Origin: Candidatus Gastranaerophilales bacterium
GTDB lineage: Bacteria > Cyanobacteriota > Vampirovibrionia > Gastranaerophilales > Gastranaerophilaceae
Assembly: GCA_944324945.1 (NCBI GenBank)
Contig: CALUYE010000001.1
Location: 62,001-126,000 of the forward strand
DNA: 64,000 nucleotides
Direction of reading: 5' to 3'
Below, piece by piece: positions 2,863 to 17,272 of the stretch (its first letter is position 1; every line of letters begins with the position of its first letter). The notes under the pieces were generated by a model. That model was not told the DNA's origin. It made no database searches and saw nothing but the letters and a program-made list of their open reading frames with translations. Position numbers and translations under genes: made by a program.

Positions 2863-4434
2863 TTACAATTTACTTATTTTATAATTTGTTTCCGTAATAA
2901 AATTGATTTTTATTTTTGATGAAAATTTAAACAATTCTTCTGACATAATTTCATTTCTCTCGTCAAATTCGTTTACTTTTGCATTATTAATCATATCATC
3001 CGAAACATAATTTTGCGTTGCAATCGGGCTAAAACCGTCAAGGCCTGCTATATTTATTTCCTTTATATTTAAAGAGATAAATATTTTAATCAGCATTAAA
3101 GCTACATTATCAAACATTTTTGAATCGTTTATATATGATGAATAGTTCAATATTCTTGCATTTTTTGGAGGGTTCGGTATGTTTGATGTTATAAACATTT
3201 TAGCCTTATAGTTATTTAAATTGGCAAATCTTTTGATATTTGTTAAAAATAAAATATCCTGTCTGTATTCTTGCGGAAGGAAATTGATTGAAATTATAAA
3301 AGGATTATTTTTCTTTATAAAAGTATTAACAATTTCCTTTTGAGATTCCAGTGTTTTACCGGGGGCAAGAACCAAAATCATTCTTTCTTTTGTAATTTCG
3401 CTCAATTCCTGAAGGGCTTTTGCGTCATCTACGATTTTAGAAAATTTGTCTAAATATAATTGTTTTATTAAACTGGTATCGTAAGATGCTTTTTTGTTTT
3501 CAGGGATTGACTTTAGGAGATTATTTATAAATTCAACAGGAACCGTCTGTTTATCAACAAGATATTTTGCATAGTTGGGATGACAATGATTGGTTGCCGC
3601 AAGATAATAAGGAACCGAATAACCCCAAGGAGTTTTTGCAAAAATCGGACTTATTTGTTCGTCGATAATTTTTAAAATCGGAATAATGTTATAACTCCCG
3701 CGATAATTATCGTTTATATACTGTACAATAAGTTCGCTGCACAAATTCCCCGCGCCGCGCCCCATGCCAAACAGTGTTGAATCAATAATAAGTTCTCTGT
3801 CTTTGCAAATTTTCATTAAACATTGAGCATTTGAAAAAGATAATTGCAGATTATTATGAGAATGAAAACAAAGAGCAATTTTTTCATCCAAATTATTATC
3901 TATAAGATAATACAAAGACAAAATGTCTTTTTCTTTCATCGCGCCTGTTGTATCAACTATTGTAAAACCAATCGGTTTTATTTTATTAACTTTTTCAATT
4001 AAATTAAGCAATTCAAAATATGAATAAGTGTTTGTATGCATAGGATTTACAAAAATTTTATACCCTTTTGAAATTAATTTTTTACAATATTCAACAGCCT
4101 CATTCGCTTCATTTTTCTTAAAGACAATTCTAAAAAATACATCCGAATCTTTGCAATCGGGAATAGAATCAATCGGAATCTCGCCATAATTAATCATTAA
4201 AGTATATTTAGTTTTGACGCTACTGTTTATAAATTCTTTTAAATTATCAACTTCTCTAAAAAAAGTTTTATCTTTTAAATAATTGTCTTTTTTTAAAAAT
4301 CCGCACTCTATATAATCTATATTAGACAATACAAGATTATCAACAATGGTTTTAATATTCTTAAAACCAAACTCCCAATTATTAATATATCCCCCGTCGC
4401 GCAAGGTGCAGTCCAAAATTTTTATGTTCGACAT
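2863..4434 (-). CDS. DRE-TIM (HMGL-like) aldolase with a C-terminal Rossmann-like domain
   Basis: 523 residues. Residues 1-270 form an HMGL-like / 4-hydroxy-2-oxovalerate aldolase-type TIM barrel: ILDCTLRDGGYINNW carries the conserved Asp and Arg, CFHSHNNLQLSF the HxH metal ligands, GMGRGAGNLCSE the glycine motif near the active site. Such enzymes join or split a 2-oxo acid (often pyruvate or acetyl-CoA) and an aldehyde, using a divalent metal. Residues about 345-520 form a second domain beginning MILVLAPGKTLESQ, similar in style to the DUF115 nucleotide-binding fold. It starts one base after the stop of the cytidylyltransferase gene and is the last gene of the polysaccharide operon. The pairing suggests that it makes or modifies a 2-oxo-acid sugar or side group for CMP activation; the substrate is unknown. 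Confidence 0.75.
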   Translation of the reverse strand: MSNIKILDCTLRDGGYINNWEFGFKNIKTIVDNLVLSNIDYIECGFLKKDNYLKDKTFFREVDNLKEFINSSVKTKYTLMINYGEIPIDSIPDCKDSDVFFRIVFKKNEANEAVEYCKKLISKGYKIFVNPMHTNTYSYFELLNLIEKVNKIKPIGFTIVDTTGAMKEKDILSLYYLIDNNLDEKIALCFHSHNNLQLSFSNAQCLMKICKDRELIIDSTLFGMGRGAGNLCSELIVQYINDNYRGSYNIIPILKIIDEQISPIFAKTPWGYSVPYYLAATNHCHPNYAKYLVDKQTVPVEFINNLLKSIPENKKASYDTSLIKQLYLDKFSKIVDDAKALQELSEITKERMILVLAPGKTLESQKEIVNTFIKKNNPFIISINFLPQEYRQDILFLTNIKRFANLNNYKAKMFITSNIPNPPKNARILNYSSYINDSKMFDNVALMLIKIFISLNIKEINIAGLDGFSPIATQNYVSDDMINNAKVNEFDERNEIMSEELFKFSSKIKINFITETNYKISKL

Positions 4435-5097
4435 TTATTTCATCCTATATTTTTTGTACATAAATTCCGCAAATTCAAAATCTGTTTCATTATCTATGTC
4501 AATCCCTTCAATATCATCAACCTGATAAAAATAAGGATTTTCGCCGACAAATGCTCTCGTTTTTATCATGGTTTCTTTTGATAGAATATTTATTGCCGAA
4601 TTAATTGCAAAAATATCAGGCAAGTCCTGACTTTTAGGCTTATTGCTTTCGCTATAGTTCAAAGGTTTACCGTCTTTCCACAAAAACATTTTTATTAAAT
4701 TCACGGTATTGACAGAATCGAATTCGCTATTATTTTTGTAAATTTCAAGACATTCAATTATTGTTTTATCCGAAATCATCGGATTAGTCGCATCAGCAAA
4801 CAAAATAATATCAGAATTGCAATTTTGAGCCAAATTAACATATACTTCATTAATCGATACGGTATTTGATGCGTAATAACTGTCTCTTTTTGCCGTTTCT
4901 GCACCCAAATTTTTTGCAATTTCCAGCATCTCATCACTGTCTGAATTTACTATTATGCCGTCAAGTTCTTTTATTCTTAATAGTTGTTTTATTTTTATTT
5001 CCAACAAATTACTATCCGCAAAAGGTTTAATATTTTTATTTCTAACCCTCTGCGACCCCGAGCGGACAGGTATCAGTGCTTTTATTATTTGTTTCAT
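4435..5097 (-). CDS. NeuA-like acylneuraminate/CMP-sugar cytidylyltransferase
   Basis: 220 residues. The N-terminal IPVRSGSQRVRNKNIKPF is the CTP-binding signature of the CMP-NeuAc/CMP-Kdo synthetase group, and FADATNPMIS and NSDSDEML match the central parts of the fold. Length fits a single cytidylyltransferase domain. These enzymes transfer CMP from CTP to a 2-keto sugar acid, giving the donor for a glycosyltransferase. There is no NeuB-type synthase in the window, but the next gene is a DRE-TIM aldolase. The start overlaps the stop of the acyltransferase gene by 4 bases (ATGA), so the two are translationally coupled. Confidence 0.85.
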   Translation of the reverse strand: MKQIIKALIPVRSGSQRVRNKNIKPFADSNLLEIKIKQLLRIKELDGIIVNSDSDEMLEIAKNLGAETAKRDSYYASNTVSINEVYVNLAQNCNSDIILFADATNPMISDKTIIECLEIYKNNSEFDSVNTVNLIKMFLWKDGKPLNYSESNKPKSQDLPDIFAINSAINILSKETMIKTRAFVGENPYFYQVDDIEGIDIDNETDFEFAEFMYKKYRMK

Positions 5098-5795
5098 AGT
5101 AATTTTTCCTTATCTGATAAAAATTTTTTATAGCATTCAAAATATTTTGGATAATTTTGCAATTCTAAATCATTTTTTATAAACTTTACCCCTCTTTTTC
5201 TTATTTTTGCAGGATTCCCTGCGATTACCGAATTATTTTCATCGAATTTTTTTGTAACCACAGAATTGCAGCCTATTATGTTATCGTCTGCAATTGAGGC
5301 GTTTTTTAATATCATGCTGTTTTCGCCTATCCATACATGATTTCCGATTTTTAAAATTGTATTTTTATCTAAATATTCACCCGTTTCTATATCAAATATA
5401 AAATGCGGCAACTCCCCTGTTCTTATTTGTATATTTCTTGAAAAAGTACAATTTTTACCGATTCTAATACACGAATTATGCTGAAAGACAAGCATTTTAA
5501 CATCTACCATTGAAGTTAATTCATCAATAAACACTGTACAATTATTTATCGGCACATGATTTTCTATATTTACAAGCAAATTTTTTATATTATACGGCTT
5601 TTTTATGATTACCCTATTGTTATCTCCAAATATTTTTACAAAAATATTAAAGTCTCTTCCAAATTCACTGCCGCCTTCTATTTTTATTTCATTGTTATTT
5701 CCACGTATTTTATAATGAAGATTAATCTTGGAACCCTTGCTTATTTTATTATTCTTACCTTTATTTTTATTAAAAATATTTTTAAAAATACGCAC
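5094..5795 (-). CDS. Left-handed beta-helix (hexapeptide) acyltransferase
   Basis: 233 residues. The C-terminal half has the hexapeptide pattern with isoleucine steps: RIGKNCTFSRNIQIRTG, then ILKIGNHVWIGENSMILKNA and NIIGCNSVVTKKF, followed by VIAGNPAKIRKRGV, the usual end of the CatB/NodL-type O-acetyltransferase fold. The N-terminal half also carries parallel-beta-like repeats (GNNNEIKIEGGSEFG). Likely acetylates a sugar residue of the polymer from acetyl-CoA in the cytoplasm. It overlaps the next upstream gene by one base and the cytidylyltransferase by four. Confidence 0.8.
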   Translation of the reverse strand: MRIFKNIFNKNKGKNNKISKGSKINLHYKIRGNNNEIKIEGGSEFGRDFNIFVKIFGDNNRVIIKKPYNIKNLLVNIENHVPINNCTVFIDELTSMVDVKMLVFQHNSCIRIGKNCTFSRNIQIRTGELPHFIFDIETGEYLDKNTILKIGNHVWIGENSMILKNASIADDNIIGCNSVVTKKFDENNSVIAGNPAKIRKRGVKFIKNDLELQNYPKYFECYKKFLSDKEKLL

Positions 5796-6643
5796 TATAC
5801 GCCTTCCTTTGTATAAATATCTTTAAAAATACCTCTCAACCCAACGGGATTCACACTTATTATCTCTGTATCAGGATAATGTACTGCTGCAAATTCTTTT
5901 AATTCTTTCCATTCTTCAACAATCCGTCCATAAACTCCATTTAGCATAGACTTTCTATCAGAATCAAGCACTACTCCATCGTAATGACCTACCGGCGCGC
6001 TATCGCAGCCTACTATATACACTTTTGAAGGATTAGTCCACAATATAAATTGCATTGCAGGCAAAGCTATTGTAGAAAAATTACCCAACGGTTGCGTCGA
6101 TAAATCAAATGCAAATTTACTTTTTTTCATTACCCTGTTTTTATATGTGTCGGTCATAAATCTTTCATGTTTTATGGTTGCGACAAATGACTCAGGAATT
6201 TCCAGTTCTTTAAGACCATTTTGGGTCCCAAGAAATTTTATACAGTTATTACCGTTATAATTACGCAGTTCCTCTGTTATATGAGAAATGCCTCTCCAAT
6301 CTTGAGCAAAAATATAATCAAATTTTACTTTTTCAAACAAGAAGGCTCTGTTAAGAGCAATATGAACAGCTTCTTTTATAGGATTGTATTTAGAAAGCGA
6401 TGGTCCTGCACCGCAAAGCACTATAACTTTGCCTTGATAAATATTTTTGTATTTCGGAAAAACTTTCTGATGCAAATAAGCTGTCGTTATATTCTGCTGA
6501 AAAATTTCAGCCAAAAAACCCAAATCCTCTTGGTTTAAATGTCTTTTATATTTAAGCTTAAATGATTTTCCTAAAAATGTTACAAGTTTATGATTAATAT
6601 CATTATTCTTTACAGAAAAAATGTTTTTTAATTCAAATCTCAT
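5795..6643 (-). CDS. DUF115 / MptE-like or sialyltransferase-like Rossmann protein
   Basis: 282 residues. The centre has KVIVLCGAGPSLSKYNP, the glycine-rich loop seen in DUF115 proteins (6-hydroxymethylpterin pyrophosphokinase MptE-like) and, in related form, in CstII-like GT42 sialyltransferases. It continues HIALNRAFLFEKVKFDYIFA with the Asn/Asp position expected after the second strand, and later VYIVGCDSAPVGHYDG. In a polysaccharide operon containing a CMP-sugar synthetase, a glycosyltransferase using a CMP-activated donor is the attractive reading, but sequence alone does not separate it from the other DUF115 roles. The start has AAGGAAAAG upstream. Confidence 0.6.
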   Translation of the reverse strand: MRFELKNIFSVKNNDINHKLVTFLGKSFKLKYKRHLNQEDLGFLAEIFQQNITTAYLHQKVFPKYKNIYQGKVIVLCGAGPSLSKYNPIKEAVHIALNRAFLFEKVKFDYIFAQDWRGISHITEELRNYNGNNCIKFLGTQNGLKELEIPESFVATIKHERFMTDTYKNRVMKKSKFAFDLSTQPLGNFSTIALPAMQFILWTNPSKVYIVGCDSAPVGHYDGVVLDSDRKSMLNGVYGRIVEEWKELKEFAAVHYPDTEIISVNPVGLRGIFKDIYTKEGV

Positions 6644-6658
6644 TTACTTTTCCTTTTT

Positions 6659-7543
6659 TCATAAATCCAAACTTTCAATTTTAAATTTGCTTTTCTTTGA
6701 AAACAACTTTATTCCTAAAAAATAGTATTCCTTTTTATCTAAGTAGTGTTTTATTTTAAAAAGCTTATGTTTTTCTTTATATAAACACAATGGTTGGTAA
6801 TCTATACCGTTTTCTTTTGCGAATTGTTCGGCTCTTTGGATGGCTTGTATTTTTTGATTTCTTTTATTCTTGTCTTCTTCTTTTGTATTTTTGCTTCTTA
6901 TTATTGATTCTCTGTTTTCAAAATAATGGTATGAAGTTTTTGGAACTTTTACTATGGAATCAATTCTTGTTGATAGCTTCATAGTGTATTCTATATCTTC
7001 ATAAAAAGAATTTTCGATAAAGTATAAATCTTTAAGTATTTCTTTTTTGTATAATTTTCCCCATACAACATACCAATCAGGCGGTACTATTAAGTTAGCC
7101 GTGCAATTTTTTATATTAGTTAAAAATATCTCTTTTTTGTTATTTAAAAAGTAGTAGCTTGTGTTGTTTCGTCTGTTTTTCATAACGCAGGATATGGCGC
7201 AGTCGGCGTTGTGGGTTTTGATTGCGTTGTATAGTTTTTCAAGGTAGTCGTTATCTATCCAGTCGTCGCTGTCGATGAAGGTTGTGTAGTTTCCTTTTTG
7301 TATTTCAAGACCTCTGTTTCTTGCGGCGCCTAATTTTTGGTTATTTTGATTTATTATTATGATTCTTGGGTCTTTTGTTTTGTAGTCTTGAAGAATTTTT
7401 AGGGATGAATCTGTTGATCCGTCGTTGATGCATATTATTTCGATATTTGTGAATGTTTGGTTAATTATGGAATCCAGGCAGCGGGATAAATATTTTTCGC
7501 AGTTGTATATTGGGATTATTATTGAAATTTCGGGGTTTTGCAT
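6659..7543 (-). CDS. Family 2 (GT-A) glycosyltransferase
   Basis: 294 residues. The N-terminal ISIIIPIYNCEKYLSRCLDS, INDGSTDSS and FIDSDDWIDNDYLEKLY with its DxD metal site are the classic GT2 signature. Residues about 100-220 form the usual acceptor part, and the tail is Lys-rich without membrane segments. It transfers a sugar from a nucleotide-sugar donor to the growing surface glycan on the cytoplasmic side. The start ATG follows the upstream stop codon directly, with GAGGAAG in the end of the upstream gene serving as ribosome site. Confidence 0.9.
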   Translation of the reverse strand: MQNPEISIIIPIYNCEKYLSRCLDSIINQTFTNIEIICINDGSTDSSLKILQDYKTKDPRIIIINQNNQKLGAARNRGLEIQKGNYTTFIDSDDWIDNDYLEKLYNAIKTHNADCAISCVMKNRRNNTSYYFLNNKKEIFLTNIKNCTANLIVPPDWYVVWGKLYKKEILKDLYFIENSFYEDIEYTMKLSTRIDSIVKVPKTSYHYFENRESIIRSKNTKEEDKNKRNQKIQAIQRAEQFAKENGIDYQPLCLYKEKHKLFKIKHYLDKKEYYFLGIKLFSKKSKFKIESLDL

Positions 7544-8476
7544 TTATGCTTCCTCTTTTAATCTATCAATAATTTCATTGTATTTTTGAGATACTAATCT
7601 TGCGGCCGCAAGGGCGTTTAGACCTTTGTTTTTATTGTTTATTTTAGATAAACCGTATTTTTGTGTATCTTCTATTGTTATTAAAGAAATATCATAAGAA
7701 GATACTACTTTTATTTTGGTGTTGTTTAAGATGGCGTTTAGCCAGAACCAGATGTCGTCATGCGTTGGGATTAGGGACATGAATTCTTGTTTATTTAGGA
7801 CGTTTGGGTTTAGGGATTTTGGAGGATATAAAACACCGCCGCAACCTGTTTGAGCGTTTTTATAGCTGATATCCTGATATTTTGTCCAATAAACTTCGCT
7901 CATTTTTTTAGCGCAGATTGTATTATTTTTTATGTAAAATCTTTTTGCCCTGTTTGTGTGAATGCAATCGGGATTTTTTAAGTATGAGTTATAAAGCTTT
8001 TCAACGGTATCAAAAGGATAATAAATATCATCATCAAAGGTTATTATGATATCGTTTGGAAATTCAATTAAAGACGGGATTAGTTTTTTGTAGGATTTAA
8101 TATCTTCGCACCACTTAATATCCAGTCCGAAATTTTTAAGTTCCAGTAAATCCTTGGGAAGTTCTTGTTCTTTTTTTGGGAATTGTTCGCTAGCAAGCCA
8201 TAGAATAACTTTATCGGGTTTTAGGGTTTGGTTTAGAAGGGTTTTAATTGTTTTTGAGACTGAGTTAATTCTATCGGGGAATGTTGTAAGGCTTAGGATG
8301 ATTTTTGGTGTGCGGGGGTTAGTGTTATTTATTCCTGATTCTTTAAGATTAATTTCAATAACTTTATTTGACAGTTTTTTTCTTATTCTGAAACCTAAAA
8401 AGTAGATAACAAGGTGGTTATCAAAATTATTAATTGAAAAAATTTGCTTTTGAATAATTTTTAATTTCTCAAACAT
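7544..8476 (-). CDS. GT-A-fold glycosyltransferase with DDD motif
   Basis: 310 residues from the chosen ATG at 8474-8476, which has GAGG nine bases upstream and lies four bases after the Stealth stop. A longer form from 8521 would overlap that gene by 41 bases and has no better ribosome site. KIILSLTTFPDRINSVSKTI, LLNQTLKPDKVILWLASEQF and IITFDDDIYYPFDTVEKLY mark a glycosyltransferase family A-like protein with a metal-binding DDD, and later THDDIWFWLNAIL. Acts in assembling the same surface polysaccharide. The donor is not predictable. Confidence 0.8.
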   Translation of the reverse strand: MFEKLKIIQKQIFSINNFDNHLVIYFLGFRIRKKLSNKVIEINLKESGINNTNPRTPKIILSLTTFPDRINSVSKTIKTLLNQTLKPDKVILWLASEQFPKKEQELPKDLLELKNFGLDIKWCEDIKSYKKLIPSLIEFPNDIIITFDDDIYYPFDTVEKLYNSYLKNPDCIHTNRAKRFYIKNNTICAKKMSEVYWTKYQDISYKNAQTGCGGVLYPPKSLNPNVLNKQEFMSLIPTHDDIWFWLNAILNNTKIKVVSSYDISLITIEDTQKYGLSKINNKNKGLNALAAARLVSQKYNEIIDRLKEEA

Positions 8477-8480
8477 CTTT

Positions 8481-9416
8481 TTAAACCTCAAAACAGGATT
8501 TTTGCGGGAATTTATTTTCAAGAATTTCTTTTATTTTTTCCCTGTCTTTATTTGTTGTTTTTCTTGAATCGTTTATGCACATCAATTTTGCTTTTGAATT
8601 TTTAATTTTTTCGGTTGTTTTTGATGAGATTGTATAGTATTGCGCAACTTTGGATTTTCTTTTTATGTATTTATCGATAAAATTTAGGCCCGTGTTTTTA
8701 AAAATTGCTTCGCCTTTAGAGAAAGAATAGTAAGAAATTATCATTCTTTGCATATCGGAAAAATCTCTAAAGCGGTTATTTAGAGTTTGATTGAATTCGT
8801 TTTTAAATTTTTCCTTGCATTCCAAAAACAGACTTTTCCTGTAGGGGTCAATGTTATGATAAGGAAAGTAAGGAACATCAACGCAAAGGCTTTCTTTTGC
8901 GAGTTTATATGCGCGATAAATTGTATAACCGTAGATGTGTTTGTAGTTTTTAAATTTATTTATTTTTTTATCAAGATAATAAACAGGCTTCCCATCCTTA
9001 AAGAAAAATTCAAAATCTACGCTGTCCCAAAAAAGCATATCGTCATTTGCGTAAATAAAATATTCGCTTAAATCTTTTATATCGCAGATGGAATTCTCAA
9101 TCGCGCAGGAATTAAACAAAGGAAGTTTATTTGAAGGGATAATTTCTCTATGATCTACTAATCTTATTTTTTCATTATCTGAATTAAGCCAGGAGGGTTT
9201 TTGATTATCGACTACAATAAAAATTTTGTTAATCCAGGGGGCATATTTTTCTATTGAACGAAGGGAATATTTTAATTCGTCGTTATTAAAAAAGCGGCAT
9301 TCATCAGTTGCATCTTTGTTTAATTTTGAAGATGACGAATCGTATTTTGACTTTTTTTCAAGCCACGAAGCATCTTTATCATCAACCCATGTGTATACTA
9401 TATCCGTTTTAAACAT
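8481..9416 (-). CDS. Stealth-family capsular polysaccharide phosphotransferase
   Basis: 311 residues. IDIVYTWV-type start (TDIVYTWVDDKDASW, CR1), then FFNNDELKYSLRSIEKYAPW and IFIVVDNQKPSWL, HREIIPSNKLPLFNSCAIE (CR2), YFIYANDDMLFWD and FFFKDGKPVYYLD (CR2/CR3). Stealth proteins transfer a sugar-1-phosphate from a nucleotide sugar, building phosphodiester-linked capsules like those of Neisseria. The start ATG opens the leftward operon. No plain ribosome site is seen within 10 bases, and a perfect hairpin sits just upstream (9426-9451). Its presence implies that this operon makes a phospho-glycan. Confidence 0.85.
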   Translation of the reverse strand: MFKTDIVYTWVDDKDASWLEKKSKYDSSSSKLNKDATDECRFFNNDELKYSLRSIEKYAPWINKIFIVVDNQKPSWLNSDNEKIRLVDHREIIPSNKLPLFNSCAIENSICDIKDLSEYFIYANDDMLFWDSVDFEFFFKDGKPVYYLDKKINKFKNYKHIYGYTIYRAYKLAKESLCVDVPYFPYHNIDPYRKSLFLECKEKFKNEFNQTLNNRFRDFSDMQRMIISYYSFSKGEAIFKNTGLNFIDKYIKRKSKVAQYYTISSKTTEKIKNSKAKLMCINDSRKTTNKDREKIKEILENKFPQKSCFEV

Positions 9417-11395: not shown

Positions 11396-12727
11396 TTAAC
11401 ATTTGCCCGTGCAGATATATTCAATCCCGCTTCTTTTCATTTCTTTGGGATTGTATTGATTTCTTCCGTCAAATATCAAAGGGGTTTTAAGGCTGTTTTT
11501 TATTTTATTTATATCGATTCTTCGAAATTCGCTCCACTCTGTTATCAAAATAAGCGCATCAGAACCTGATAGCGCATCATAGGAAGTTTTTGAATATTCT
11601 ATTTTGTCTTCAAAAATCAATTTTGCGCTTTGCATTGCTTTAGGGTCATAGGCTTTTATTTTTGCTCCTTTTTTTAACAATTCATTAATTATTGTAATTG
11701 AAGGAGCCTCTCTTAAATCGCTTGTTTTGGGTTTAAATGAAAGCCCCCAGAGCGCAAATGTTTTATCTTTAATATCGTTATTAAATCTTTTTAAAATTTT
11801 ATCGATAAATTTATATCTTTGTTTTTTATTAACCTCCTCAACCGCCCTTAAAAGCTCTGTTTCACAATTATTTTCTTCCCCTGTTTTAATTAATGCCCTA
11901 ACGTCTTTTGGAAAACAGCTTCCGCCATATCCAAGCCCCGGGAATAAAAATTGATTCCCTATTCTTGAATCGGCTCCCATACCTCTTCTTACCATTTCAA
12001 CATCAGCCCCTGTTTTTTCACACAGCAAAGCTATTTCGTTTATGAATGATATTTTTGCCGCAAGAAAAGCGTTTGAAGCATATTTTGTCATCTCTGCGGA
12101 TTTTATATCCATGATTATAATTCTGTTTTCTTTTCTGAAATACGGCGAATACAATTCCTGCATAATCTTCAAGGCTTTTTTGGAATCCACTCCGATAATT
12201 ACTCTATCGGGGGATAAAAAATCGTCAATTGCATTTCCTTGCTTTAAAAATTCAGGGTTTGAAACAACGTCAAAATCAAAATTTGTATTTTCTTTTATAA
12301 TTTGCGCAATTTTTGAAGATGTACCTACAGGAACCGTTGATTTATCAACAATTACCCTGTATCCGTCCATAACACATGCTATATCTTTTGCCGCTTTAAA
12401 AACATAGCTTAAATCAACGCTGCCGTCTTCTTTCGGGGGAGTTCCCACTGCTATTATACAAATTAAAGAATTTTTAACGGCATAATTAATATCATCGCTA
12501 TAAGAAAGTCTTTTTGCTTCAATATTTGTCTTAACAAGTTCTTCAAGCCCTGGTTCATAAAGAGGCATTATTCCTTTATTTAAAAGATTTATTTTCTCTT
12601 TATTGCAATCAACACAAATTACCCGATTGCCCATATCCGCCAAGCACGCGGAAGCCACAAGCCCCACATAGCCTGCGCCTATTACCGTTATGTTAATTTT
12701 TTTGTTTTCTATATTATTTTCATCCAT
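11396..12727 (-). CDS. ugd: UDP-glucose 6-dehydrogenase
   Basis: 443 residues from the ATG at 12725-12727; a TTG two codons upstream is possible. NAD-binding ITVIGAGYVGLVASACLAD, substrate-binding IMPLYEPGLEEL, VDKSTVPVGTS, and catalytic Cys in GYGGSCFPKDV are all present, as is the C-terminal domain (ALWGLSFKPKTSDLREAPS). It oxidises UDP-glucose to UDP-glucuronate in two NAD-linked steps, supplying uronic acid for the surface polymer made by the upstream genes. It is the last gene of the leftward operon that starts at 17272, and it begins just after the methyltransferase stop (AAAGGGTG as ribosome site). Confidence 0.95.
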   Translation of the reverse strand: MDENNIENKKINITVIGAGYVGLVASACLADMGNRVICVDCNKEKINLLNKGIMPLYEPGLEELVKTNIEAKRLSYSDDINYAVKNSLICIIAVGTPPKEDGSVDLSYVFKAAKDIACVMDGYRVIVDKSTVPVGTSSKIAQIIKENTNFDFDVVSNPEFLKQGNAIDDFLSPDRVIIGVDSKKALKIMQELYSPYFRKENRIIIMDIKSAEMTKYASNAFLAAKISFINEIALLCEKTGADVEMVRRGMGADSRIGNQFLFPGLGYGGSCFPKDVRALIKTGEENNCETELLRAVEEVNKKQRYKFIDKILKRFNNDIKDKTFALWGLSFKPKTSDLREAPSITIINELLKKGAKIKAYDPKAMQSAKLIFEDKIEYSKTSYDALSGSDALILITEWSEFRRIDINKIKNSLKTPLIFDGRNQYNPKEMKRSGIEYICTGKC

Positions 12728-12733
12728 AACCAA

Positions 12734-13459
12734 TCACACCCTTTCAAAACAAAAACAGCAGCTGTTTGTTTCTTTTCTTAAACCTGTTTGTTTTGTTAAA
12801 ATACATTCTTTTTTTATAAGTTTCAGATTCTCAAGCGAAGAATTTATTAAATTAATATATTCTTCCTGTGTTCTATAAATTGCACTATAGTTTGTTTTTA
12901 ATTCATCGGAATAAAAATTCTTTAAAGTTAATCTTTGATTAATTGTGCTTATTGTTTCCTGAAGATATATTTTTGCACCTTTGTTTATTAATTTGTTGAT
13001 TGTTCCATAAAGAATTGATAAATCATCATCATTCATATACATGCAAATACCGCACATAATAATAAGATTGTATGGCAAATTGAGTAAATTTAAATCTAAA
13101 TCGGGAGCCTTTAAGAGATAGAAATTTATGTTTTTAAAATTTTTATATTTTTTATGCGCAAGATTAATAAAATTAGAACAAAAATCAATTCCGTCGTATT
13201 TTTCAATGTAATTAAAAATGTTATCGACAAAACGCCCGCCCCCGCAGCCGATATCCAAAACATTGTATTTTTTATTATCAAGAAAAGAAATTAGCTCTTC
13301 TTTTTCTTTTTCATTTCTTAAGTTATGACTTTTAGTATCCAGTCTGTCATTTAAAAAAACGGCATTTAAGAGGTTTGCTTTTGATTTTTTCTCATAAAAT
13401 TCTTTAACATCGTCTGAATTTATATCCGTTATTTTATTGTAAATTCTTGTTTCTTGCAT
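12734..13459 (-). CDS. Class I SAM-dependent methyltransferase
   Basis: 241 residues. YNVLDIGCGGGRFVDNIF is motif I for S-adenosylmethionine binding, YDGIDFCSNFINLAHKKY the acidic motif after strand two, and LIIMCGICMYMNDDDL the post-motif. The last third carries several Cys (CCFCFE near the end). Probably methylates a sugar or lipid-linked intermediate of the polymer. The start overlaps the end of the YidC-sulfatase gene by 26 bases, which implies coupled translation. Confidence 0.8.
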   Translation of the reverse strand: MQETRIYNKITDINSDDVKEFYEKKSKANLLNAVFLNDRLDTKSHNLRNEKEKEELISFLDNKKYNVLDIGCGGGRFVDNIFNYIEKYDGIDFCSNFINLAHKKYKNFKNINFYLLKAPDLDLNLLNLPYNLIIMCGICMYMNDDDLSILYGTINKLINKGAKIYLQETISTINQRLTLKNFYSDELKTNYSAIYRTQEEYINLINSSLENLKLIKKECILTKQTGLRKETNSCCFCFERV

Positions 13460-15989
13460 TTTCTCTGTTTTTCTTTCTTATTTTTTTTACTTTTTGTTTT
13501 TTTAAACCTTGCCAGTTTTCAACTTTAAATATGTTATCTTTTACGCTTATGCAATCCGTTTTATTATCAAAAGGAGTGTTTCCTTTTTCTTTAAGGTTAA
13601 ACCTTTTTGTTCTTGCAATTAAGACAAGAGGCGGGGTTTTATCAATTTTAATTAAATTAGAAGTGTATGGATTAGTCGGATTTTTTATAACATCTTTTAG
13701 CGCAATATATGGTACATCTGCATTTGTCATAAATTCATCCGAAACTTTCATATCCCCTCTTTGATTAAAATCTTTTACAAGCAATAAAGCATTGAATCTT
13801 GCTATATTATCTTCTATTTTTTTATTCAAATAAGGATTTTTTAAATTTTTTGCCCCATGGTCTGAAACAATTATGATTCTTGTGTTATCATAAATCCCGT
13901 TTTCTTTTAAAAAATCAAGATATTTTGCAACAAGCCTTATACAGGCAGCGTTGCTGTGGTAGTGAATTGAAGAATATCTGTCTAAGTTATAAGGGGTTTT
14001 AATAACGGGCTTAAAGGTTAATTTATAATCGGGATACTCCAAAAAACAGTCCGCATTATGGGTTAATTCATTGTTAATTATCGTAAAAGTCGGATTTTTG
14101 GAATCAAACCTTGTTATTTTATCAAGGAAATAAAGTGATGAATAGCTTGCAAGAAGGTCGTTTGTGTATCTTATTTCTTTTTTATTTAAATTAAGATAAT
14201 TGTTATTATCAATTATAAAATCCCTTAAACATAAAGGCGCAATCTTCATAAACGAAAAATAAAGTAAATTCCGCTCTAAATCGTATAAAGAGCTTTTATC
14301 ATGCGAAAAAGAGTATTTCTTTTTATATAAAGAAGAATATTTGCCCATTAAATTATCGTATTTTATTCCTTCTTTTAAAAATAATTCCTTCGGCGTAATA
14401 TATTGAAAATCTCCCCAGGGGGTATCGGTTATTGTTGTTTCAAAACCGTTATTTTTAAATATTTTAGGAAGCAAGAGGATTGATTCGTTGTATTTTTCTT
14501 TTAAAGATTTATTTAAATCCAAATCCATATTAAGAGGACTGTATTCATACCCGCCCATCAAAGCAGGGTATGCAAGCCTTGTGTAGCAGCCGAAAGAAAC
14601 AATATTAGGATAATACACAAAACCTTCAAAGTGTTTTTTTAAGGAAGGTTTTTCCTTAAAAATCAAAGGAAGATACGAACCTATTGCTTTATCAATAAAA
14701 ATAATTAAAACATTTTTATTATTTTTGCTAAAGTTATAAAAAGGTTCAAAATTCTCGCTTTGAAGGGGTACCTTTTTACCGAGATTAATAATCTCTCTTG
14801 TATCATATATCCCAATTACAAATACCGCCAAAAGAAAAATAATAAACGTTTTTTTAATTATATCTCTTTTTTTAAGAAGCAAAATAACGGAAATTAGAAT
14901 TATAAAAAATAAAATAAAATAATAAGAACCTGCTAAAATTTTGCTTCCTATGTGGGTCGTAAATTCAAGCGTATTTGTAACCTCGCCGTAGGGATATTCA
15001 ATATAGCAGTAATTAAATACAAAAAAGTAAAATAATATAATTAAAAAAGAGGTTAATAAATTCCTGTATTTTTCGCAAGAAAACGAATATACAACCCATC
15101 CCCAAAAAACAAAAATCCCGAATGTTTTAACAAGATGATAAAACAAAAAAGGAAAAGGGGTTATATAAGGATAAATATAAAAAAACTTTGGAGGGGCGCT
15201 CGATAAAAGATTCCAGGGAATCAAAAGCCCGACAAACAGCCACAAACAAATACAAACAAGAAAATAACAAGTTTTTAAATCGGTTTTATCGGTGTTTTGT
15301 TTTTTAATAAAGTCGCTTAATTTAATAAAAAATAGAGGTTTTTTAAAAGAAAATTTAATTTCTTTTGTTAAGATTATATTTTTTATAAGCGAAAATAAAT
15401 TGTTAAAAGTCCAATATAAAACTAACGTATAAGGAGCATTGTATAAAACAACAAGAAAAAACAAGGATATAACCCATATTTGTATTTTTTTTGTGTTGTG
15501 CTTATTTACATAAATAAGCCCTGCAATAAGATTTATCAGAGTCATTAAAAGGGGCAGAAGATTTATTTTAATTTGTCCTGTTTTTAATAAACCATCAGGA
15601 TTTGAAGGTAAATTTTGAACAAAAAATAAATAAGCCGCAACAAAAAATATCATCTGTAAAATAAGGCTTAAAGTTCCTCTAAGAGCGTATATCGGATGAT
15701 AGTTATTTTCTCTATAGTACGCAGCTAAGAGCATGTGGCGCTCTTCGCCTTTAAAATTTTTCTTTATTGCATCTGCTTTTTTCTTTAATTTTTTTTGAAT
15801 TTCATCATTTTCAATCTTTAATTTATCGGCATTTAAATACAAAGGAAGCCACAAAAAATTAACAATTACACTTAAAAAAATTATTGAAAATGTTTGATTA
15901 AAAGAACAAAATTTAAACAAAAAATTATAGATAATTTCAATTAAAACATAAATAGGGTTTATTAAAATTTGAAATAGTATATCTAGCAT
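13434..15989 (-). CDS. Fusion of a YidC/Oxa1-like membrane domain and a sulfatase/LTA-synthase-like phosphotransferase domain
   Basis: 851 residues. Residues 1-210 resemble the YidC/Oxa1 core: IIFLSVIVNFLWLPLYLNAD, a charged helical hairpin at 55-95, an Arg at 104 ahead of LSLILQMIFF, and LYWTFNNLFSLIKN at 191-204, which matches the last YidC helix. Residues 240-400 add about five more membrane segments. Residues 425-760 form an alkaline phosphatase-superfamily domain: NVLIIFIDKAIGS, FGCYTRLAYPALMGG with a candidate nucleophile Thr470, ELTHNADCF, and IIVSDHGAKN. The order membrane domain then extracytoplasmic domain is as in lipoteichoic acid synthases, but with a YidC-like module in front. 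It lies between a TagF-like gene and a methyltransferase; a role in transferring a phospho-group onto a surface polymer is inference. Confidence 0.7.
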   Translation of the reverse strand: MLDILFQILINPIYVLIEIIYNFLFKFCSFNQTFSIIFLSVIVNFLWLPLYLNADKLKIENDEIQKKLKKKADAIKKNFKGEERHMLLAAYYRENNYHPIYALRGTLSLILQMIFFVAAYLFFVQNLPSNPDGLLKTGQIKINLLPLLMTLINLIAGLIYVNKHNTKKIQIWVISLFFLVVLYNAPYTLVLYWTFNNLFSLIKNIILTKEIKFSFKKPLFFIKLSDFIKKQNTDKTDLKTCYFLVCICLWLFVGLLIPWNLLSSAPPKFFYIYPYITPFPFLFYHLVKTFGIFVFWGWVVYSFSCEKYRNLLTSFLIILFYFFVFNYCYIEYPYGEVTNTLEFTTHIGSKILAGSYYFILFFIILISVILLLKKRDIIKKTFIIFLLAVFVIGIYDTREIINLGKKVPLQSENFEPFYNFSKNNKNVLIIFIDKAIGSYLPLIFKEKPSLKKHFEGFVYYPNIVSFGCYTRLAYPALMGGYEYSPLNMDLDLNKSLKEKYNESILLLPKIFKNNGFETTITDTPWGDFQYITPKELFLKEGIKYDNLMGKYSSLYKKKYSFSHDKSSLYDLERNLLYFSFMKIAPLCLRDFIIDNNNYLNLNKKEIRYTNDLLASYSSLYFLDKITRFDSKNPTFTIINNELTHNADCFLEYPDYKLTFKPVIKTPYNLDRYSSIHYHSNAACIRLVAKYLDFLKENGIYDNTRIIIVSDHGAKNLKNPYLNKKIEDNIARFNALLLVKDFNQRGDMKVSDEFMTNADVPYIALKDVIKNPTNPYTSNLIKIDKTPPLVLIARTKRFNLKEKGNTPFDNKTDCISVKDNIFKVENWQGLKKQKVKKIRKKNRENARNKNLQ

Positions 15990-17272
15990 GATTTTATTTC
16001 CTCATATTTTTCCAAAATAAAATCCACAGCCCTTTTTGCGCTCTCACCCCTGTAAAACCAGGCGATATCTTTTGCTTTTTGAATTTCTTCTTTTAATTTT
16101 AATTTTATTTCTTTGTTATCTTTAATATTTTCAATTAAAGATACAATTTCGTTTATATTTTTATTATTTATTTCAAACCCTATTTTTTTCATCACCTCAT
16201 AGCGCCAGATTGGGCCTTCTATATCACTGATATCCAAAATATCTCTATTCATATCAAAAGTTGTATATAAAAACGGTTTGTCAAATAAAAACGCATAATC
16301 AAACATTACCGTTGAATAATCTGTTATTAATATATCTGAATTTGCCATGGAATAGATATTGTCCAGGTTTTTATCCCAGATTACGTTTTTATTATTTTCA
16401 TATTTTTTCTGAAATTCTAAAATCATATTTTTTTCAACAGTATAAGACCTCGGATGCGGTCTTATGATTATGTCCCAATTTGTTTTTATGAGTTTATCGA
16501 TAATATTTGAATATTTATTAAAAATTGAATTTTCTCCCCAGGAAGGCGCTATTAAGACCGTAAAATTCTCCGATTCCCTTTTTGGAATTGTTTTTAATTT
16601 TTCTTTCAAAAAATCCATGTAGGTTGAACCTACAACAACTAAATCTTTCTTTTTTAAATTTCTTTTTTCTTCAAGCTCGCGAATTAAAGGAATTTGAAAT
16701 TCGCCGTCGCACAAAACGCCATCATAATAATCAAGAGAAAAAAGGCGATAGTCCATAGAAGTTGTAATCCCATGGAAAATATGAAGATAATATTTTACAA
16801 ACTTAGACCTTTTAAGCTGCAAAACATCAAGCTGCGGCGTTGTCATAAGGCATATATCGGCTTTTAAAAAAGCAAGATTGATGTATGCTTCGTTATTTTT
16901 TCCTATATATTTACCTTTAACAAATTTATAATCACACTCAAAAAACGGATCGTCTTTTGATGAAGTATAAAATAAAAGAGGAATCCGCCTTTTTTCAAAT
17001 TCGTCCGCAATAGGCTTAAAAACGCTGAAATACTCACTGCCATCCGAATATATAACAAAAGGATTTTTAGTTTTTGATAAATCCGTTTTTTTAAATAAAA
17101 ATCTTTTCAAAAAAATTACAAAAGAATAAAGAAGAAAATAAATTGTTGTAACAAGAGCCAATATTAAAGACAACATCATACTCCCAAACCCGGGATCAAT
17201 ATATGCAAAAGCAGGAGTATAGGCATAAAAAAGCAATAAAAAAGCAATAAAAAATTTAATAACAGTCTTCAT
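15983..17272 (-). CDS. CDP-glycerol glycerophosphotransferase (TagB/TagF)-like protein with N-terminal YIDPG membrane module
   Basis: 429 residues. Residues 1-23 are a signal-like hydrophobic segment ending FAYIDPGFGSMMLSL; the YIDPGxGS element followed by one or two membrane helices (to about residue 60) is known from small membrane proteins near phosphatase-superfamily genes. Residues 65-420 are a CDP-glycerol glycerophosphotransferase-like domain: YYLHIFHGITTSMDYR, WDIIIRPHPRS, DILITDYSTVMFDYAF. Such enzymes transfer glycerol- or ribitol-phosphate from the CDP-linked donor. First gene of the leftward operon; the downstream gene overlaps by 7 bases. Teichoic-acid-type enzymes in an organism with BamA point to a phospho-capsule rather than wall teichoic acid. 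Confidence 0.8.
   Translation of the reverse strand: MKTVIKFFIAFLLLFYAYTPAFAYIDPGFGSMMLSLILALVTTIYFLLYSFVIFLKRFLFKKTDLSKTKNPFVIYSDGSEYFSVFKPIADEFEKRRIPLLFYTSSKDDPFFECDYKFVKGKYIGKNNEAYINLAFLKADICLMTTPQLDVLQLKRSKFVKYYLHIFHGITTSMDYRLFSLDYYDGVLCDGEFQIPLIRELEEKRNLKKKDLVVVGSTYMDFLKEKLKTIPKRESENFTVLIAPSWGENSIFNKYSNIIDKLIKTNWDIIIRPHPRSYTVEKNMILEFQKKYENNKNVIWDKNLDNIYSMANSDILITDYSTVMFDYAFLFDKPFLYTTFDMNRDILDISDIEGPIWRYEVMKKIGFEINNKNINEIVSLIENIKDNKEIKLKLKEEIQKAKDIAWFYRGESAKRAVDFILEKYEEIKSC

Follow-up and report, generated by a model that had tools for sequence, protein, structure and literature searches.

A YidC-like domain fused to a surface transferase and paired with a TagF-like enzyme: a possible two-gene surface-decoration system in Gastranaerophilales and other bacteria

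What does a YidC/Oxa1-type domain do when it is joined to an enzyme of the lipoteichoic acid synthase type? This question is raised by a fusion gene in a 64,000-nucleotide stretch (hereafter, the window) of a Candidatus Gastranaerophilales bacterium (GCA_944324945.1, contig CALUYE010000001.1, positions 62,001 to 126,000). The open reading frame (ORF; window positions 13434-15989, minus strand) runs uninterrupted from ATG to stop. Pfam matches were found to 60KD_IMP, the YidC family (residues 34-208, 66 bits, cut-off 35, E 5e-18), and to Sulfatase (residues 426-758, 26 bits, cut-off 25), and a profile built from 69 homologues matched YidC (E 4e-12) and sulfatases including LtaS (E 0.004) among PDB chains. 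AlphaFold2 modelled the whole protein from the 69-homologue alignment with a mean predicted local distance difference test score (pLDDT) of 90 and a predicted template-modelling score (pTM) of 0.86. Nine other genomes of the order encode collinear homologues with 35-48% identity, and hundreds of collinear homologues, encoded as single ORFs, occur in several phyla. The possibility noted in the initial annotation that a frameshift or assembly error had joined two genes is ruled out by these collinear single ORFs, as is a chimera; the chance that any such error, or a chance fusion of two genes, explains the locus is vanishingly small, and the fusion is a virtually certain, conserved protein. Viral and plasmid origins were also rejected, as a viral scan gave pattern matches and no relative, and no plasmid match was obtained. 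No description of a YidC-sulfatase-type fusion was found in the open-access literature searched, although sequence databases probably hold such proteins already under generic names. The fusion and its upstream neighbor have the following features.

13434-15989, minus strand: whole fusion gene, 851 aa; YidC-like domain, five transmembrane (TM) helices and extracytoplasmic alkaline-phosphatase-superfamily transferase (ORF, Pfam, AlphaFold2, collinear homologues)
15366-15989, minus strand: YidC/Oxa1-fold domain, residues 1-208; amphipathic N-terminal helix, TM1, cytoplasmic C1 hairpin (54-100) and TM2-TM5 (60KD_IMP, VIA)
15858-15860, minus strand: Asn44, at the position of the conserved groove Arg/Lys in true YidC (the genome's own YidC aligns with Arg at this site)
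14778-15287, minus strand: second membrane part, five predicted TM helices, residues 235-404, the least conserved region (DSSP of the model, positive-inside loop charges, 26% mean pairwise identity)
13512-14726, minus strand: extracytoplasmic alkaline-phosphatase-superfamily (sulfatase/LtaS/EptA fold) domain, residues 422-826 (Pfam Sulfatase, VIA)
14691-14693, minus strand: Asp433, candidate metal ligand, invariant
14580-14582, minus strand: Thr470, predicted nucleophile, invariant in 69/69 homologues (hhalign onto the second Thr of EptA SCGTAT)
14058-14060, minus strand: His644, candidate metal ligand, invariant
13857-13862, minus strand: Asp710-His711, predicted metal ligands in an SDHG motif, invariant
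15983-17272, minus strand: TagF-like CDP-alcohol glycerophosphotransferase homologue with an N-terminal hydrophobic AYIDPG segment (PF04464 46 bits, cut-off 22.1), overlapping the fusion start by 7 bases

Because a structure search with the full-length model revealed the transferase part only, the N-terminal domain was folded separately (pLDDT 92). Using this model, Foldseek placed only YidC structures above background (the top 8 matches, E 7e-6 to 6e-3), and VIA aligned it to YidC of B. halodurans (3wo7; Z 14.6 over 198 residues) and of E. coli (Z 13.8). Past the YidC entries, Z drops to 6.8 for a multipass-translocon chain (7tut_8, possibly TMCO1). The YidC layout that the initial annotation saw in the first 210 residues is borne out by these matches, and the LYWxxN-LFS motif that it placed in the final helix is real (residues 191-200), with Y192, W193, N196 and S200 invariant in 68/68 fusions. 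Fold and 60KD_IMP thus place the domain in the YidC/Oxa1 superfamily, whereas its score against the curated NCBIfam YidC model TIGR03592 (55.2 bits) is below the 84.3 cut-off. The groove Arg for which a check had been proposed is absent and replaced by Asn44. At this position, 68 fusions encode Asn, Ser, Thr or another residue and none encodes Arg or Lys, and the same is true of 132 fusions including tandem copies: Asn, Ser or Thr predominate, and a charged residue is never present. Arg or Lys is present in 25 of the 28 true YidCs used in the tree, and a 2022 study called this positive charge strictly conserved in all homologues (PMC8920935). Phylogenetic analysis placed the fusion-type domains on one side of a 100/100 branch and true YidCs, mostly from the same genomes, on the other. 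The genome of the window has a true YidC as a separate gene, as do 19 of 20 fusion genomes (242-634 aa; the exception is a metagenome-assembled genome [MAG]), and the idea that the fusion serves as the sole YidC of the genome was therefore rejected. The YidC-like domain is an Oxa1-superfamily fold that departs from YidC insertases in groove charge, curated-model score and tree grouping. It is also the most conserved region of the fusion (mean pairwise identity 51%, compared to 39% in the transferase and 26% in the second TM part), and the two halves diverge in a correlated manner (Mantel r 0.61; at most 0.18 in 2000 permutations).

As had been stated from the first reading, the second half resembles lipoteichoic acid synthase; the likeness extends to fold and active site. 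VIA aligned the C-terminal part to LtaS (2w5q, Z 20.9), PbgA/YejM (6xlp, Z 21.0), LtaP and sulfatases, with Z about 21. The PbgA alignment spans fusion residues 232-847, implying that the second half alone is a complete enzyme with five TM helices and an outer domain. The catalytic Thr sought by the initial annotation was found in Thr470; this residue, D433, H644, D710 and H711 are invariant in 69/69 homologues and in 132/132 near-full-length fusions including tandem paralogues. In an hhalign comparison to E. coli EptA, which was weak (E 0.003) and consistent with the motif, T470 fell on the second Thr of SCGTAT, which we take to correspond to Thr285 of MCR-1, whereas OpgB could be aligned at residue level in the DHG motif region only. 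The fusion thus combines features of LtaS/EptA-type enzymes: the alkaline-phosphatase fold, about five TM helices followed by an outer domain, and the Thr nucleophile and Asp/His ligands. Its modelled topology is consistent with a catalytic domain outside the cell, since a native YidC orientation (C terminus inside) is followed by five TM helices; the Lys/Arg-rich loops are those predicted to be cytoplasmic. We conclude that the fusion is very probably an outward-facing phospho(no)alcohol transferase, whose probable task is to decorate the cell surface with groups that contain phosphate or phosphonate. The earlier description of a polymer-modifying enzyme as in lipoteichoic acid synthase holds for fold and active site; the donor and acceptor are putative, and glycerol phosphate is no likelier a donor than a phosphonate.

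The gene directly upstream encodes a short-form TagF-like protein with an N-terminal hydrophobic YIDPGTGS segment, in which YIDPG is almost invariant. Among 192 sampled genomes of the order, strong TagF-like matches occur in exactly the 10 that encode the fusion, with one weak partial match elsewhere (probability by chance about 1e-15, ignoring phylogeny). The gene is also found in 20/20 other whole fusion genomes (1-3 copies each), which together contain about 50 fusions and 29 TagF-like genes, suggesting one donor enzyme for several transferases. With respect to gene order, 64 of the 79 loci collected contain it, many loci being cut short by contig ends, and it directly adjoins a fusion gene in 55/70 cases. 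The fusion and the TagF-like enzyme are probably functional partners. Among paralogues of the same locus, the YidC-like halves are 70% identical and the transferase halves 51%, which is more uneven than predicted by the between-locus trend; this hints that the paralogues share a donor and differ in acceptor, with gene conversion as an alternative source. In one genome (L034 8693-10004, G126), the TagF-like gene is split into two overlapping frames just upstream of an intact fusion, due to either sequencing error or decay.

Two Spirochaetota genomes provided matches to the YidC-like part only. These were rejected as broken fusions and proved to be split operons (L172 1056-4934; L173 934-5048), in which YidC-like, TagF-like and transferase proteins are encoded by three adjacent genes. 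The YidC-like protein (about 238 aa; 60KD_IMP 83 bits) is 39% identical to the domain in the window, and the TagF-like protein shares 39% identity over its length with the window's partner. The third gene encodes a separate sulfatase-family membrane protein with a Pfam Sulfatase match, for which BLAST against the window's catalytic domain returned no meaningful match. A 2-aminoethylphosphonate (AEP)-type aminotransferase adjoins one split operon and a phosphoenolpyruvate (PEP) mutase the other, and a true YidC is present in both genomes. In Elusimicrobiota, we found a second kind of fusion (type II: L184 3093-8061; L185 3239-5788; L186 from 2261), in which the YidC-like domain is joined to a different transferase subtype. 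The type II C-terminal part has 24-30% identity to the split-form transferase and no BLAST match to that of the window; it falls short of a Pfam Sulfatase match and was assigned by its similarity to the split-operon transferase, which has one. A TagF-like gene with YLDPGTG lies downstream of the fusion in L184 and L186, and L184 also contains an AEP-type aminotransferase. The type II and split YidC-like domains are nested within the fusion-type clade, and none has the groove charge. Judging from these sequences, the constant module is the YidC-like domain and the TagF-like enzyme, with an exchangeable transferase. The new use of the YidC fold that had been suspected for this gene is well supported by the separate clade, the lost groove charge, the true YidC encoded elsewhere and the obligate TagF-like partner.

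A scan of a genome collection detected at least 567 relatives, with 78 distinct loci from several phyla being returned; together with the collinear homologues in the order, this provides the survey of other taxa that the initial annotation had called for. The taxa represent at least five phyla and comprise Gastranaerophilales-like bacteria, Spirochaetota, Bacillota, Elusimicrobiota and one alphaproteobacterial MAG. In even draws of genomes, the fusion was found in 6/292 from the window's own phylum, 51/247 Spirochaetota (matches under 1e-60; two of the 51 are split), 11/199 Elusimicrobiota and 2/398 from the phylum of a Lachnospiraceae genome, where it is uncommon as a whole. The number of copies per genome ranges from 1 to about 12 across the 20 fusion genomes, with some copies being partial. 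One Clostridiales genome (L087, G205) encodes many tandem fusion genes and three TagF-like genes, and its tandem array could be a source of surface-decoration diversity.

Downstream of the fusion, two genes follow on the same strand.

12734-13459, minus strand: S-adenosylmethionine (SAM) methyltransferase (Pfam), overlapping the fusion end by 26 bases
11396-12733, minus strand: UDP-glucose 6-dehydrogenase, the next gene (Pfam and NCBIfam), a supply function for surface polysaccharide

The dehydrogenase is probably in the same operon as the fusion. By clustering, homologues of the methyltransferase belong to two minimal cassettes (L033 and L128), and in L043 one lies close to the fusion; L033 is an isolated minimal cassette of cytidylyltransferase, methyltransferase, TagF-like and fusion genes between unrelated genes. 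Further along the window (2863-9416, minus strand), a surface-glycan cluster encodes an HMGL-type aldolase, a CMP-sugar-type cytidylyltransferase, a hexapeptide-repeat protein, glycosyltransferases and a Stealth phosphotransferase, possibly for an unusual CMP-activated sugar acid. Phosphonate genes are present in 35/79 loci and a TagD-like cytidylyltransferase in 6 other loci, with no locus having both. The phosphonate genes encode PEP mutase with cytidylyltransferase, phosphonopyruvate decarboxylase (Ppd), iron alcohol dehydrogenase, or a two-domain nucleotidyltransferase-aminotransferase whose domains, compared by order, are arranged as in T. denticola PntC-AEPT Tde1415. Tde1415 is active as a cytidylyltransferase on AEP (PMC6697681). 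Elsewhere in the window's genome (L138 8774-12213, on contig C1 at about 325 kb), a PEP mutase-cytidylyltransferase is followed by Ppd fused to iron alcohol dehydrogenase, which suggests a CMP-2-hydroxyethylphosphonate pathway in a Gastranaerophilales-like bacterium.

How might these parts work together? We propose, with a probability of roughly 0.45 for the model as a whole, that the fusion and the TagF-like enzyme form a two-gene surface-decoration machine. The cytoplasmic TagF-like enzyme would take a phospho- or phosphono-alcohol from a CDP- or CMP-activated donor and load it onto a membrane lipid of the inner leaflet; depending on the genome, the group may be glycerol phosphate, 2-aminoethylphosphonate or 2-hydroxyethylphosphonate. 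In the novel step, the YidC-like domain, with its retained YidC fold and a conserved polar groove that is uncharged and lacks the insertase charge, would let the head group of the loaded lipid cross the membrane, or would present the loaded lipid. The outer domain would then move the group via Thr470 to a surface glycan or glycolipid, a reaction we infer from a supported fold, active site and topology. That the YidC-like domain handles a lipid-linked donor is a tentative assignment at somewhat less than even odds. We are similarly reserved about the broader proposal that a branch of Oxa1/YidC left protein insertion and became the component by which a lipid-linked phospho- or phosphono-alcohol donor crosses the membrane, together with a TagF-like loader and outer transferases that can replace one another. 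Lipid scrambling in vitro has been observed for purified, reconstituted YidC of E. coli and for yeast Oxa1 and Get1, with a simulated path in the insertion groove (preprint PMC10491306), so the proposed role requires no new physical property. The substrate channel offered in the initial annotation as one role for the domain comes close to this best explanation, and would be an equally inferred one.

Several observations weigh against this model. Loss of the groove charge marks a distinct family and does not prove loss of insertase activity, because E. coli YidC functions without Arg366 if residue 517 is aromatic or polar (PMC8920935), and the invariant Trp193 of the fusions lies at about position 517. 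The window's genome carries its phosphonate genes ~247 kb away from the fusion, next to another glycerophosphotransferase-like candidate with no match to any Pfam model. PEP mutase is encoded by 6/10 fusion genomes and 24/182 others of the order (hypergeometric P 0.001, ignoring phylogeny); a strict link between fusion and PEP mutase was tested in the order and found to be moderate only. The donors of LtaS, OpgB and EptA are ordinary phospholipids, and transfer by the outer domain therefore needs no special loaded lipid. Biochemical data were found for no member of the fusion family.

The closeness of fold and active site to LtaS, LtaP, PbgA and EptA, together with the nearby surface-glycan genes, would also fit a different division of labor, in which the role of the TagF-like enzyme is to build or prime a (phospho)polymer inside and the fusion modifies it outside with the head group of phosphatidylglycerol (PG) or phosphatidylethanolamine (PE), as LtaS, OpgB and EptA do, the YidC-like domain helping the membrane-bound acceptor or polymer to span the membrane. 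We consider this unlikely, albeit a serious candidate, because the isolated L033 cassette lacks sugar-polymer genes, loci are often linked to cytidylyl and phosphonate supply genes, and phosphonate head groups are absent from ordinary phospholipids. It is rather improbable that the YidC-like domain acts as a docking site or private insertase that inserts or holds the YIDPGTGS segment of the TagF-like protein, or helps to fold the fusion's own TM part, thereby uniting the cytoplasmic and outer enzymes in one complex. The nearly invariant YIDPG at the partner's N terminus, the TagF-like gene in every fusion genome tested and the retained C1 hairpin, through which YidC makes contact with its cytoplasmic partners, are all in line with docking; however, for a client with one helix it would scarcely be necessary to equip every one of up to ~10 paralogues with a dedicated insertase, and a true YidC is present as well.

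Finally, variable N-terminal TM parts are common in enzymes of this superfamily, and the YidC-like part could be extra membrane anchoring with no function of its own. Anchoring as its whole role, the other option in the initial annotation, is very improbable: the transferase has five TM helices of its own, the YidC-like part is the region under the strongest conservation, no intact fusion copy without it was found, and it occurs as a stand-alone gene beside TagF-like and separate transferase genes. The constant pairing of YidC-like and TagF-like components with an exchangeable transferase argues most strongly against anchoring alone.

The proposed decoration machine shares parts with several known systems. 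Like the YidC/Oxa1 superfamily insertases (YidC, Oxa1, Alb3, EMC3, GET1 and TMCO1), the fusion domain has a five-TM fold and a cytoplasmic C1 hairpin, but it lacks the positive groove charge, forms its own clade and is joined to, or in an operon with, a surface transferase. With LtaS/LtaP, OpgB (MdoB), EptA/MCR and PbgA, the fusion shares the fold, five TM helices with an outer domain, the Thr nucleophile site and Asp/His ligands, whereas its additional N-terminal YidC-like domain and constant TagF-like partner set it apart, and its donor is possibly not PG or PE. The partner has the domain of the TagF/TarF/TagB CDP-alcohol glycerophosphotransferases (PF04464), including RPHP and DYS/DFS-type motifs, in a short form with the N-terminal hydrophobic YIDPGTGS segment. 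In three-component Gtr decoration, a lipid is loaded inside by the donor enzyme GtrB and flipped by GtrA, and the group is transferred outside by GtrC; the likeness is one of logic only, with the YidC fold presumably in the place of the flippase. Phosphonyl tailoring (Pnt) pathways (PntC, PEP mutase, Ppd and AEPT; PMC6697681) provide the supply genes present in many fusion loci, and the fusion with its TagF-like partner would be another outlet for them. Rice et al. (2019) describe LicD-like phosphotransferases or glycosyltransferases in Pnt loci and call the later steps of phosphonate tailoring enigmatic, and the text of theirs that was searched mentions no sulfatase and no TagF (PMC6697681).

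Oxa1-superfamily proteins are treated as protein insertases (the four member families of the superfamily are all described as protein transporters, PMC8675477). Whether their in vitro lipid scrambling has a physiological use becomes directly testable with a YidC fold that lacks the insertase charge, is coupled to an enzyme with an expected lipid donor and is encoded beside a lipid- or polymer-loading partner. If the model is true, it would provide the first role of the YidC fold outside protein insertion as well as a missing export step for bacterial phosphonoglycans, and the system could supply late steps of surface-phosphonate decoration in gut and rumen bacteria, including the cultured Treponema bryantii and Breznakiella homolactica.

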